Below, piece after piece: positions 59,777 through 64,000 of a stretch of 64,000 nt of DNA. The translations under genes were made by a program, and so were the position numbers. This DNA is from Bacteroidales bacterium. Its GTDB lineage: Bacteria; Bacteroidota; Bacteroidia; Bacteroidales; ML635J-15. Position 1 is the stretch's first letter. Every line of letters begins with the position of its first letter. The notes under the pieces were generated by a model. It was not told the origin of the DNA, did not search any database, and was given only the letters and a program-made list of their open reading frames with translations. Location of the stretch: positions 62,001 to 126,000 of the forward strand of contig JAISPG010000019.1 of NCBI GenBank assembly GCA_031275085.1, given 5' to 3'.

Positions 59777-59850
59777 CGGGGTGTAGCTCAGTTGGTTAGA
59801 GTACGCGTCTGGGGGGCGCGGGGTCGTTAGTTCGAGTCTAATCACCCCGA
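59777..59850 (+). tRNA. tRNA-Pro (anticodon GGG)
   Basis: Acceptor CGGGGTG pairs with CACCCCG; D stem GCTC/GAGT; anticodon stem CGCGT/GCGCG with loop CTGGGGG gives anticodon GGG (codons CCC/CCU); T stem GTTAG/CTAAT with loop TTCGAGT. Discriminator A at 59850, CCA not encoded. Confidence 0.95.
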
Positions 59851-59858
59851 CAAATTTG

Positions 59859-60219: not shown

Positions 60220-60492
60220 TACGTTGAGTTTTTTCTCTGTTGCATATTTATTGCGATATGCTACATATTCATTGCGATGTATTACACATTCATTTTTCCC
60301 TGTTACATATTCGTTGCGATGTGTTGCACATTCATTTCTCCCTGCTACATATCCATTTTCCCCTGCTACATATCCATTTTCCCCTACTGCATATCCATTT
60401 TCCCCTGCTACATATCCATTTTCCCCTGCTGCATATCCATTTTCCCCTGCTGCACATTCATTTTCCTCTGCTGCATATTCGTTGCGATATGT
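60220..60492. repeat. 21-bp minisatellite, twelve clear units plus one degenerate
   Basis: From 60241 to 60492 the sequence is twelve units of exactly 21 bp; 60220-60240 is a thirteenth, degenerate one. Two unit types alternate in the outer part: one with TTCATTGCGATRTG and one with ATCCATTTTCCCCTGC. The inner five or six units are nearly identical, type two. No unit has gained or lost a base. All three forward frames stay open because 21 is a multiple of three, but no start or context supports a protein. Confidence 0.9.
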
Positions 60493-60591
60493 GTTAATAG
60501 CGCTCCTATAATCCGCAAATTAAAAAGTACGGTTTTTTAAATTAAAAAGTACAATTTTTTTATGAGGTATGTTATGTTATATAAAAAATTA

Positions 60592-60632
60592 GAGTGCACA
60601 CTTTATTGAATGTTCAATAATTGTATGCACTC
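60592..60632 (-). terminator. Terminator of the beta-helix protein operon
   Basis: GAGTGCA (60592) pairs with TGCACTC (ending 60632), with a second inner pair TTATTGAA/TTCAATAA; read on the minus strand the hairpin is followed by AATTTTTTA. It lies 45 nt after the small 60-residue gene. Immediately to its left two copies of AAATTAAAAAGTAC lie 22 nt apart (60517, 60539). Confidence 0.7.
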
Positions 60633-60676: not shown

Positions 60677-60859
60677 TTAAATTACTTTATGTGTAATGCT
60701 GACCTGGTAATTTATTTCCGAATCCTCTGCAGGTGTCAATCTGGCTCCCTGAAATTTTATCTTTGGTTTATACGGAATAAATTTTAGCCCTATATTATTA
60801 ATTCGTGCCGGAACATGGACAGGAGCCTTAACTCCGAAAAATCTTAATTTTGTACTCAT
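60677..60859 (-). CDS. Small hypothetical protein at the end of the beta-helix array
   Basis: 60 residues, start ATG at 60859, 6 nt after the stop of the preceding array gene. The sequence is basic and beta-like (K-L-R-F-F-G-V-K-A-P-V-H-V-P-A-R-I) without signal peptide. Tight spacing and a following terminator support a real gene that closes the operon. No family recognised. Confidence 0.6.
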   Translation of the reverse strand: MSTKLRFFGVKAPVHVPARINNIGLKFIPYKPKIKFQGARLTPAEDSEINYQVSITHKVI

Positions 60860-60865
60860 ATTATT

Positions 60866-62377
60866 CTATTCTGTAAAATGTAAATTTAATTCTAACTGAA
60901 AGTATCTTATATTGATTTTTTTAGCGATGTAATCGGTATTATTCTCCAGATGAACTGAGTTATAGTCGGCTGTGGTAACTGCATAGTTCCCATATGTATT
61001 TAAATCTACGGTACTGTTTATTCCGATTTTTTCAAGGTCATTAAATAACACAGGGTTACCGTTTTTATGGAACCATATTTGAGTATCTCCTGACAGGGAG
61101 CATGAAAATTTTGGAAATTCCGACACTTTGTTTTCATCGTCATAAGGGATAACTTCAATTGTTTCTACCGGAATATTACTATTATTATACTGTTGTTTTT
61201 TTCCAAAATAATGTTTTGTGTTTATTCCCGTATTAAAAATACATTGTATTCCGGAAAAATCGAAATTACGTGAATTAGGTTTTATTACACCGGAACGTAC
61301 ACAATTCCATGTTTGCTGCGAAAGCCTGTTTACCGTGTAGTTTCCTTCAGACTCATTATAAATCAATAAATCACCTGTATTTTCATAATTATATGTTCCG
61401 TCAGGGTTTAAATTTATTATATTTCCCATTTTTATATCAACATTAGGAAAGTATGCTCCCGTAAAACTTCCTGTACTGCTCATATATAAAGCAGGGTTAT
61501 TGTCGTCCAGATATAAAGTAAGGTCTACAGGATTATTCTCTTTGTCATATTTATTGAAAATAGGGGTATCCTCTATATCATCATGTATTACGTTATTTTC
61601 GGGAAATGATTTATTGGCAATATTGGCAAGGTACTTACAGTCATCTTCTTGTAGGTTCTTTTCTGCATAGTCTTGTAGTGAAGATTTTAAATCATCTATC
61701 CATTTTTTCTTATCTTCGGAGTATGATACAGGTATAATATTACCATTCCAGCTCCATTTTAAAGATTTCCTGAATAAACAGTTATTAAATGTAGGAAATA
61801 TATCAATTGTTTGAGATTTGTATCTGTACAGATCGATTTCATTTATAAATATATGATCTAATAATATATTGTCAGTATTAGTGATATAATTTTTAAAATT
61901 CTTAATAGTAAAATTTTTGATATATGTACTATTGACATAAGTCGATATAAAGTTATCAACATAGTTATATATTGATAATTGTTTATTGTTTCTGTTTATT
62001 ACATTAAATTCTGAGATCCTGCAATTCCTGAATCCGCTGAAAATATTATTTTGTGTTGTTCCAATAACATTATTTACATGTAAATTAAAAATATAATAGT
62101 CATATGTATAATAGCCTCCTTTTATTTCGAAATAATTTTTATCCGGAAATATGCAATGGTGGAAGACCTGGGGATATCCTCCGAATGTTTCATATACTCC
62201 GTCATTGATACAAACATATTTTTTATTTGTAATAAGGGCTTTTCCTATAGTTTTTACCGGTGCTTCCCTGGTTCCGGTATTGCTGTCGCTACCCATTATT
62301 GAACAACAGTAAACAGTGTTGTCGTCTGTGAGTAGTTCATTGTAGTAAGGATCTCTTGTTCTTTTAAATACTGACAT
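60866..62377 (-). CDS. Beta-helix-like array protein 1 (DUF1565-like start, possible fibre/spike)
   Basis: 503 residues, no signal peptide. The start M-S-V-F-K-R-T-R-D-P is shared by the next paralogue. The stretch G-S-D-S-N-T-G-T-R-E-A-P-V-K-T-I-G-K-A-L is the hallmark of DUF1565 and other pectin-lyase-fold beta-helices. The middle has many short N/Y/I-rich strands (F-T-I-K-N-F-K-N) of a solenoid; the end L-E-L-N-L-H-F-T-E is common to the three paralogues. It could be a fibre or spike attached to a particle, or a non-classically exported surface protein. Context: tandem array beside a tRNA. Confidence 0.7.
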   Translation of the reverse strand: MSVFKRTRDPYYNELLTDDNTVYCCSIMGSDSNTGTREAPVKTIGKALITNKKYVCINDGVYETFGGYPQVFHHCIFPDKNYFEIKGGYYTYDYYIFNLHVNNVIGTTQNNIFSGFRNCRISEFNVINRNNKQLSIYNYVDNFISTYVNSTYIKNFTIKNFKNYITNTDNILLDHIFINEIDLYRYKSQTIDIFPTFNNCLFRKSLKWSWNGNIIPVSYSEDKKKWIDDLKSSLQDYAEKNLQEDDCKYLANIANKSFPENNVIHDDIEDTPIFNKYDKENNPVDLTLYLDDNNPALYMSSTGSFTGAYFPNVDIKMGNIINLNPDGTYNYENTGDLLIYNESEGNYTVNRLSQQTWNCVRSGVIKPNSRNFDFSGIQCIFNTGINTKHYFGKKQQYNNSNIPVETIEVIPYDDENKVSEFPKFSCSLSGDTQIWFHKNGNPVLFNDLEKIGINSTVDLNTYGNYAVTTADYNSVHLENNTDYIAKKINIRYFQLELNLHFTE

Positions 62378-62392
62378 ATTGTTTAAAAATTT

Positions 62393-63901
62393 TTATTCTG
62401 AAAAATGAAAATTTACCTCTAATTTAAAATATTTTATTTCTATGTTTTTTGCTATACAATCGTTGCGGTTCATAAGGTCGTTGCTGTTTATATCTGCAGT
62501 GGTGACAGCATATTCGCCATATAGATCAGAATTCACGGAATTTTTTATATTCATACCTTCAAGATCGTTGAATAAAACAGGTCCGCCGTTCTTATGGAAC
62601 CATATTTGAGTATCTTCATTTAAGGAACACGAAAATTTTGGAAATTGAGATACTGTATTTTCGTCATCATAAGGAATGACTTCAATTGTTTCTACAGGAA
62701 TATAATTGTCATTAAATTGTTGTTTTTTTCCAAAATAGTACTTTGTATTTGTTTCGGAACTTAAAATACCCTGTATTCCTGAAAACATGAAGTTGCGCAT
62801 ATTAGGCTTTATGACCCCGGAACTAACCCTGTTCCATTTTTGGTAAGATGTGGTATTGACTTCGTAGCTGCCGTCATTTTCATTATATATTAATAAATTC
62901 CCACCAATAGTCGGATCGTACGTTCCGTTTTCGTAAATATTATGGATTATTCCCATATTCATTTTCAGATTGGGAAAAAATGCACCTACAAAACTTTCCG
63001 TGCTGCTCATATATAGTGCCGGATTATTTTCATCAAGAAACAGTGTTAAATCTACGGGATTATTATCATTATCGTATTTGTTGAAAACAGGTGTGTCATT
63101 CAGGTCATCGTGTATAATATTTCCTTTTTGAAAAGAATTTTCAACAATTGCTAAAAGATAGTCCTGATTAGTTCCGGTAAGATTACCTATAGCGTAGTTT
63201 TTTAATGAATTCTTCAGATCAGTTATCCAGTTTTCTTTATTTTCGGAATATGTTACAGGAATGGTTACTTCATTCCATGTCCATTTTAAGGCTTTTCTGA
63301 AAAGACAATATTCAAATACCGGATATATGCTTGTTCCCTGGTTTTTGTATCTGTATAAGTCAACTTCATTTGTGAATATATGATCCTGTAAGATACTATC
63401 ACCTTGAACATAGTGATTTTTAAAATTTTTTATTGTAAAATTTTTAATAAATCTGCCAATATATCTTGATATGAAATTTTCAACATAGTTAAATTCTGAA
63501 TGATATAGATTTTTTTGTGCCAGTTCGAATTCATATATATAGCAATTGTGAAATCCTGTAGTATTATTACTATGTACGCCTTCACCTATTATCCTTTCAA
63601 GTTGAATATTCATCACATGATGATCGTATGTATAATAATCGCCTTTGATCACTACACTGCTTTTATCAGCAAAAACATTATTATGACTTACCGGACCATA
63701 GATTTCTGGTATATTATATATACCATCGTTTATGCAAATAAATGATTTATTTAGTTTTAACGCTCCTGCAAGAGATTTAAGCGGAGCCTCCCTGGTTCCC
63801 GGATTATCATCACTACCTGTGGCAGTACAGCAATATATTGTATTGTCATCTGTTAGCAAACTATTATAAAACGGATCTCTTGTTCTTTTAAATACTGACA
63901 T
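62393..63901 (-). CDS. Beta-helix-like array protein 2, paralogue of the preceding entry
   Basis: 502 residues. It aligns with protein 1 throughout, most closely at both ends (M-S-V-F-K-R-T-R-D-P-F-Y-N-S-L-L-T-D-D-N-T; G-S-D-D-N-P-G-T-R-E-A-P; P-V-E-T-I-E-V-I-P-Y-D-D-E-N; L-E-V-N-F-H-F-S-E) and least in the solenoid between residues about 60 and 160. Spacing to protein 1 is 15 nt, so they share a transcript. No signal peptide. Confidence 0.7.
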   Translation of the reverse strand: MSVFKRTRDPFYNSLLTDDNTIYCCTATGSDDNPGTREAPLKSLAGALKLNKSFICINDGIYNIPEIYGPVSHNNVFADKSSVVIKGDYYTYDHHVMNIQLERIIGEGVHSNNTTGFHNCYIYEFELAQKNLYHSEFNYVENFISRYIGRFIKNFTIKNFKNHYVQGDSILQDHIFTNEVDLYRYKNQGTSIYPVFEYCLFRKALKWTWNEVTIPVTYSENKENWITDLKNSLKNYAIGNLTGTNQDYLLAIVENSFQKGNIIHDDLNDTPVFNKYDNDNNPVDLTLFLDENNPALYMSSTESFVGAFFPNLKMNMGIIHNIYENGTYDPTIGGNLLIYNENDGSYEVNTTSYQKWNRVSSGVIKPNMRNFMFSGIQGILSSETNTKYYFGKKQQFNDNYIPVETIEVIPYDDENTVSQFPKFSCSLNEDTQIWFHKNGGPVLFNDLEGMNIKNSVNSDLYGEYAVTTADINSNDLMNRNDCIAKNIEIKYFKLEVNFHFSE

Positions 63902-63929
63902 ATTTATGTATTTATTATTTTGTTATTTT

Positions 63930-64000
63930 TTAATTTGCAAAATGCAGATTTAACTCTAACCTGAAGTATCTGATGCTAATTTTTTTTGCTATATAATTAC
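63930..64000 (-). CDS. Beta-helix-like array protein 3 (C-terminal end only)
   Basis: The last 23 codons of a third paralogue, ending I-R-Y-F-R-L-E-L-N-L-H-F-A-N and a TAA at 63930-63932. It matches the ends of proteins 1 and 2 closely. The rest lies outside the window, 28 nt upstream of protein 2. Confidence 0.75.
   Translation of the reverse strand, partial: NYIAKKISIRYFRLELNLHFAN

Follow-up and report, generated by a model that had tools for sequence, protein, structure and literature searches.

What is encoded by a run of similar genes that leaves the edge of a sequenced window, and to what larger entity might that run belong? The window considered here is a stretch of 64,000 nucleotides (nt) from a Bacteroidales bacterium (GenBank assembly GCA_031275085.1, contig JAISPG010000019.1; C67:62001-126000), the right edge of which falls within a contig of 182 kb. 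An initial annotation had described, at that edge, at least three tandem same-strand paralogues running off the window, and this description holds, there being exactly three, with no more found anywhere in the source genome, i.e., as searched in a draft of 78 contigs that is 89% complete. The array runs on, to the right of the window, into a Mu-like transposable element of approximately 24 kb, reaching to about C67:146842. Judged from gene content and gene order, the three paralogues probably make up the receptor-binding fibre array of that element, one which would lack a head and which would, upon induction, give rise to a tailocin. Elements of this type are on balance best read as tailocins capable of transposition, in which the fibre genes have multiplied and recombine.

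The paralogues themselves are 502 to 511 amino acids long, follow one another on the minus strand, and are 56-64% identical pairwise as proteins. A pattern of fixed ends around a variable middle, as initially described, is present only in moderate form: identity among the copies is 66-70% over the first 50 alignment columns, 38-47% over columns 50-150, and 50-88% beyond. The DUF1565-like start suggested at the same time is weak as well, with copy 1 matching at an expectation value (E) of 0.0015 and 18.3 bits, i.e., below the Pfam gathering cut-off of 20.3, and copy 2 at E 0.15, also under the gathering score; these were the two copies scanned. No hydrophobic N-terminal stretch was seen by eye, and a profile of the fibres gave a single match to the PDB which, at E 0.095, is not credible. 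A search of 393 genomes of the order brought up nothing closely related to the array, and four weak matches in other genomes are open reading frames without tail genes, by eye, within at most 1.5 kb to either side. The closing 60-residue gene and terminator, in turn, are as first described. The gene has no family match in profile scans, and the predicted terminator, which a simple consensus scan did not list, is a hairpin of 17 pairs followed by a U-run (-22.7 kcal/mol over the 111 nt folded; z -4.2; equalled by 0 of 200 shuffles).

Between the non-neighbouring copies 1 and 3, a tract of 300 nt is 92% identical versus 65.5% elsewhere; synonymous differences drop to 0.15-0.28 inside the tract from 0.63-0.90 outside it, and the tract was equalled by none of 2000 block shuffles. 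As copy 2 is not involved, what is seen is an exchange between copies 1 and 3 rather than constraint. Gene conversion, that is, took place within the window array following duplication. An early suggestion of antigen switching by recombination is thereby divided, recombination being seen while antigen switching gained no further support.

To learn what accompanies the array, 60 kb of the contig were read, starting just left of the array and going right. Upstream of the fibres and on the same strand are, in order, a gene of 181 codons that weakly matches fibres, a LysM-like protein, and a 317-residue protein, then three putative baseplate genes, a spike-like gene and two hubs (phrog_4930 and phrog_5233), then a 554-residue protein, a 108-residue protein, tube, and sheath (phrog_907, E 2.5e-41). 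These are followed by two small genes for membrane proteins or lipoproteins, an amidase (phrog_822, E 2.2e-53), and a reversed phrog_6911 gene, and then by DUF3164, a small gene, a further ATPase, MuB (phrog_296, E 2.8e-33), MuA (transposase; phrog_310, E 2.8e-33) and a reversed S24 repressor, beyond which is an ordinary acetyltransferase. The large genes of the element are intact as open reading frames. The amidase is a lysis gene; the membrane protein and the lipoprotein beside it were assigned by eye. Labels of spike and of further baseplate genes stem from position and from homology to headed relatives, while the gene called tube is so named because headed phages in which the capsid is a separate gene carry its homologues next to the sheath. 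The 317-residue protein bears a TGGYPL motif, some form of which, by eye, most headed relatives have just before the fibre. As for the limits of the element, a 22-bp repeat found twice at its probable right end is matched at 18 of 22 positions, inverted, at the opposite end (L005:5842, i.e., about C67:146842), and these inverted motifs suggest ends approximately 24.3 kb apart. Tail sheath, tube, baseplate, or integrase genes are what the initial annotation had proposed seeking to the right of the window. Sheath, tube, and hub genes are present there, and its idea that the paralogues are alternative fibres, whether of a phage tail or of a contractile injection system, is, from position, well supported.

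What is not seen in this element is a head. Profiles for large terminase, portal, and capsid, as built from relatives, matched nothing in the element at E 1e-3, with headed controls matched, nor was there a named terminase, portal, or capsid match among the scanned element genes save that of phrog_9206 to the tube gene. The best scores in the element with filters off were E 0.035 for MuF, 0.051 for portal, 0.12 for capsid, and 0.15 for large terminase, with the small terminase profile reaching E 0.0066, at 7.6 bits, to a 127-residue protein. In headed relatives DUF3164 is followed, further along, by phrog_6911, neck, MuF, portal, and terminases, all reversed, and then by protease, capsid, lysis, and sheath. 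The window element retains phrog_6911 as well as the lysis-sheath side, with all between gone, which is the pattern expected from one deletion. The nearest sheath relatives found are headed in three of three cases (G033, L007, and G451), each being about half identical. That the head block might instead reside elsewhere in the genome was considered and rejected, in a whole-genome search for head genes that took in the terminase family only, as the only other phrog_38 terminase (C33) belongs to a siphovirus-like prophage (L142-L144; G000:C33:72000-131999) with, by eye, a 1418-residue tape-measure-like protein.

Is such head loss peculiar to a single genome? GTDB genomes were scanned with a MuA alignment, yielding at least 80 loci, and 62 of the 80 listed have at least 7 kb behind MuA. 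Among those 62, five are headless by a set criterion, 26 are headed, and 31 could be placed in neither class by profiles, with L110 and L117 at first among the latter and later found to be headed. The headless five are from Chryseobacterium indologenes CI_885, C. angstadtii, C. arachidis, C. vrystaatense, and one Chryseobacterium metagenome-assembled genome (MAG), and they have in common the layout MuA-MuB-ATPase-DUF3164-phrog_6911 (reverse)-sheath-tube. All five are complete, with host genes at both sides of each. A virus collection provided 14 loci, of which five are headless, four of these being 99.4-100% identical to elements of four of the five genomes. The large terminase (TerL) family phrog_38 had no match in any of the ten sources (five Chryseobacterium genomes and five virus records), as compared with a control that was positive in six of 14 named genomes and in all six genomes of a further set. 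Head profiles run over the five elements and their flanks gave one match at E 0.01 or less, of a 144-residue host-side open reading frame to large terminase (E 0.0098). A capsid profile, phrog_267, matched none of the ten but matched no control either, and consequently shows nothing.

In a MuA tree of 90 rows, from which four virus records duplicating genome loci and rows of fewer than 450 amino acids were excluded, the five come together in a single clade (support 99). Next to it are other Chryseobacterium elements, of which the two checked are headed, and the clade sits inside a Weeksellaceae group together with Riemerella phages. The window element instead groups with elements from Bacteroidales MAGs. 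A single origin of all headless rows is rejected (approximately unbiased test on 34 chosen rows, p 7e-13), such that the head was lost at least twice. The phrog_6911 gene was kept in both headless lineages even though it borders the lost head block, and a tail terminator is a role which would fit its product. The gene has no PDB match, and 16 of 16 members match phrog_6911, with three matching as well, weakly, a portal family (best E 6.2e-06).

Fibres too are multiplied in the second lineage. Their numbers at the element end are two, three, two, two, and two in the five Chryseobacterium elements, versus the three of the window element. These Chryseobacterium paralogues are 667-756 amino acids long, tandem, and by sequence unlike the window family. 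Over their first 250 columns they are 36-100% identical per 50 columns, with the remainder mostly below 30%, the exception being one C. angstadtii pair which keeps 37-62% past column 250. Eight headed phages, i.e., ones in which sheath, tube, large terminase, and capsid were all found by profile, showed no tandem paralogues at their right ends at E 1e-8, two of the eight stopping at a contig end. Included in the comparison are two sister headed Chryseobacterium phages, each with a single fibre (670 and 678 amino acids) of the same family as that of the headless clade. Near the right end of four of the eight is, by eye, a module which we take to be Mom-like DNA modification, and which was seen, likewise by eye, in none of the six headless elements. 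DNA modification genes are described, in the cited passages, among the last open reading frames of related phages (PMC7761591).

How have the headless elements been maintained? Among the five Chryseobacterium elements the median ratios of nonsynonymous to synonymous substitution (dN/dS; Nei-Gojobori, without pairs saturated for dS) are, on the transposition side, 0.035 for MuA, 0.024 for MuB, 0.031 for the ATPase, and 0.030 for DUF3164, versus 0.112 for phrog_6911, 0.106 for sheath, 0.084 for tube, and 0.153 for tape measure. Transposition genes in this clade thus are held more tightly than is the tail. As dS is frequently greater than 1, head loss within the clade is old. The five carriers, as judged from flanking genes, have their elements at four sites, two sharing one and the three others being separate. 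By eye, the msrA site has no element within approximately 1.5 kb in eight of ten Chryseobacterium genomes, the rest being its two carriers, and the dnaK site is element-free in nine of ten, the remaining one being the carrier. Assuming a single head loss in the headless clade, the element may have moved afterwards, recombination between hosts being one other possible route.

The life cycle that would follow from these genes is one in which inactivation of the repressor starts both transposition and the late genes. Tails would then assemble without heads, and the lysis genes would free contractile tail particles, i.e., the tailocin. Each particle presumably would attach to its targets by one of two or three fibre types, such that several receptors might be covered by one lineage. 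The retained MuA and MuB, for their part, would mobilise the element within the cell or raise its copy number there. A broader proposal, which we offer tentatively and at somewhat less than even expectation, is that Mu-like phages became self-transposing tailocins at least twice, the head being lost, the fibre gene being multiplied into a recombining tandem array, and transposition genes being selected above the tail, since replicative transposition would spread the weapon or multiply its genes during production. It would be part of this same proposal, and just as tentative, that the end-of-genome modification genes of the headed Chryseobacterium sister phages were lost along with the head.

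A number of observations weigh against reading these elements as functional tailocins. The strongest of them, as far as function of the window copy is concerned, is that this copy has no recognisable tape measure, a protein which tailocins are thought to need. In its slot, as judged from headed relatives and from the Chryseobacterium elements, is the 554-residue protein, which scores E 4.4 (filters off) against our own tape-measure profile; the best tape-measure match of the element is to the 127-residue protein (E 0.0019, 8.2 bits), which is too short. The 554-residue protein has no Pfam, PHROGs, NCBIfam, or PDB match, and neither RHS core repeats nor a known toxin domain. Its sole match outside of its own genome, among the 393 genomes of the order, is to a stretch behind an RHS-like core (E 7e-11), involving the middle of the protein (40% over 93 amino acids, pairwise). 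This suggests toxin-like cargo, which might be tail-delivered or might instead signify a copy that no longer builds normal tails. Indeed, with the place of the tape measure taken by a protein that has an RHS-linked segment, the window copy may be altered or dead. The Chryseobacterium elements do have a tape measure and are, with that gene kept, the better test objects.

Pointing in the same unfavourable direction, neither exact ends nor a target duplication was found for the window element or for those of Chryseobacterium. The spike and further baseplate genes lack named profile matches, and in PHROGs the tube gene matches best to phrog_9206, a family labelled major head protein (E 2.9e-20), with a tail family, phrog_4579, ranking lower (E 3.8e-10). 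The fibre family is without a confident known relative, no close relative of the window element was found in searches with the fibre and with the 554-residue protein, and the source genome is a draft assembly. Lastly, as the five Chryseobacterium elements belong to a single clade, head loss and fibre arrays are connected by two independent cases, and a Fisher test (p 0.0003) is unusable since it treats that clade as five.

Of the competing explanations, the one which survives best, though we regard it as unlikely, is that these are decaying Mu-like prophages, the head block having been deleted, the tape measure replaced, the rest left open by chance, and the fibres representing passive duplication. 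The missing tape measure of the window copy is what such decay would leave, some other MuA loci do resemble partial remnants, and incomplete prophages are, per passages of one survey, often without terminase and portal while being rich in tail-fibre and transposase genes (PMC7744054), about half of the enriched transposases there being those of insertion sequences (PMC7744054). Set against this are the open large genes and a layout which arose twice. Furthermore, dS in Chryseobacterium is often greater than 1, yet median dN/dS stays at 0.024-0.153 for eight genes, which decay does not give. The conversion tract also implies that copies exchanged DNA after duplicating, though that is no proof of use.

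Considerably less probable is that the elements are phage satellites, ones which encode their own tail and lysis proteins but take heads and packaging from a helper, with MuA-replicated copies then transferred. Such a lifestyle would account for the stronger selection on MuA and MuB than on the tail, as well as for four sites among the carriers, and the source genome does have one other terminase, that of the siphovirus-like prophage. The five Chryseobacterium genomes, one of them a MAG, nevertheless have no phrog_38 match and hence no resident helper of that kind, and neck and head profiles match none of the elements. Least credible of all is an assembly artefact in which two elements were falsely joined and a head block thereby hidden, as, notwithstanding the 78-contig, 89% complete draft, the element lies inside one 182-kb contig and the same junction recurs in Chryseobacterium, namely in four named isolates and in one MAG.

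We favour still the transposable-tailocin reading and turn to the surroundings of the array (Table 1). Its place beside a tRNA-Pro had first suggested an integrated element. An element there is, but the tRNA fails as an integration cue, given a MuA-type transposase and a probable element end about 0.7 kb from the tRNA. A second copy of the tRNA-Pro 3' end, predicted for such integration, was sought with up to three mismatches in 40 kb spanning the element and its flanks, and the sequence occurs once only, in the tRNA itself. A tRNA-targeted island is therefore rejected and the tRNA taken to be incidental. Between the tRNA-Pro and the right end, at 60238-60478, is an array of a 21-bp repeat (TGCATATCCATTTTCCCCTGC) with about seven good copies plus variants.

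Table 1. Coordinates of features in and adjoining the fibre array (window positions unless a contig or locus is named)
Feature	Position	Strand	Remarks
tRNA-Pro	59777-59851		~0.7 kb from probable element end
Probable right end of element	60517..60560	.	two copies of 22-bp repeat (AAATTAAAAAGTACAGTTTTTT)
Predicted Rho-independent terminator, end of fibre operon	~60592..60632	-	from fold energy and U-run past stem
60-residue gene downstream of last fibre	60677..60859	-	
Fibre paralogue copy 1	60866..62377	-	503 amino acids
Fibre paralogue copy 2	62393..63901	-	502 amino acids
Fibre paralogue copy 3, C-terminal end	63930..64000	-	511 amino acids; extends past window to C67:127465
Fibre paralogue copy 3, full gene	C67:125936-127465 (L004:4931-6466)	-	
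phrog_6911 gene	L004:18225-18710, right of window	+	

Other MuA loci deserve mention in their own right. Sister Chryseobacterium elements were for a time taken for 'mini' elements with RHS cargo, an idea which was dropped because, in the two checked (L110 and L117), terminase, portal, and capsid lie within the 20 kb that follow; these are headed phages with RHS-like cargo. L110/L159 (Chryseobacterium sp. ZHDP1) and L117/L160 (C. lathyri) are headed and Mu-like, with long genes, RHS-like by eye, near the early block, and L110 and L114 are two MuA loci within one genome. Four Sphingobacteriaceae loci (L064, L067, L087, and L059) consist of MuA-MuB plus a few tail, protease, or fibre genes, neither a capsid nor a large terminase gene being visible in the stretch examined, i.e., remnants or mini-elements. 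Three Weeksellaceae loci (L070, L089, and L131) have a hub-like gene a few kb past MuA-MuB, with a spike-like gene in two of the three and no other tail gene by the profiles used.

Among known systems, tailocins of Pseudomonas syringae occupy a conserved site and are not known to have a transposase. The elements considered here differ in that MuA and MuB are retained, strongly selected in one lineage, and in that the elements are found at different sites. What is shared, here as predicted from genes alone, is contractile tail genes without a head, a Mu-like origin, and fibres that set the target, the R-tailocin of P. syringae being described in the cited passages as a Mu-derived, headless contractile tail (PMC12090994). 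The window element would possess an R-type tailocin gene set, i.e., sheath and hubs by profile, tube by homology, a lysis amidase, and no head. In its early transposase, ATPases, and DUF3164, and in a repressor at one end with tail genes toward the other, it resembles the transposable phage fF4 of Flavobacterium columnare and the hankyphage, as presented in passages of each report (PMC7761591, PMC12135933). Terminase, portal, protease, and capsid genes, however, are listed for fF4 (PMC7761591), and hankyphage makes capsids (PMC12135933). Transposable prophages of Leptospira are similarly depicted as headed phages (PMC8705779).

A mobility gene is kept as well by BceTMilo, a Burkholderia tailocin with a tyrosine integrase and putative Xis (PMC5411513), but that tailocin is P2-related and has an integrase rather than a transposase, selection on which goes unreported in the passages cited (PMC5411513). 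Carotovoricin tail-fibre loci of Pectobacterium are likewise described as diversifying their fibres through recombination while the N-terminal part stays conserved, though via an invertase or between-strain exchange rather than, as here, among tandem full-length paralogues in one element (PMC13195805). Tailocin loci with several fibre genes, fibre inversion, and fibre exchange, per the same passages, were thus already known (PMC13195805). Extracellular contractile injection systems likewise are phage-tail-derived, some with toxin cargo according to the portions cited (PMC10598620), whereas the genes here match Mu-type phage families, i.e., in general Pfam and PHROGs scans only. One further source reports, in its relevant passages, no genomic evidence of tailocins (PMC12724379). 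In the open-licence literature, no description was found of headless elements whose MuA and MuB are under selection, or of head loss being linked to the multiplication of fibres. Tailocins themselves are known, that is, but selected transposition together with fibre arrays appears new within the literature searched.

Tailocins usually are viewed as fixed, domesticated loci. A tailocin with a selected transposase would, if the reading is true, be instead a mobile weapon, and would offer a direct way of asking what a headless phage gains by transposing. As the Chryseobacterium carriers include named isolates, that question is testable. Head loss in combination with fibre multiplication in two independent lineages suggests furthermore that a phage, needing to reach one host, and a weapon, directed at many targets, may place different selection upon the same gene.

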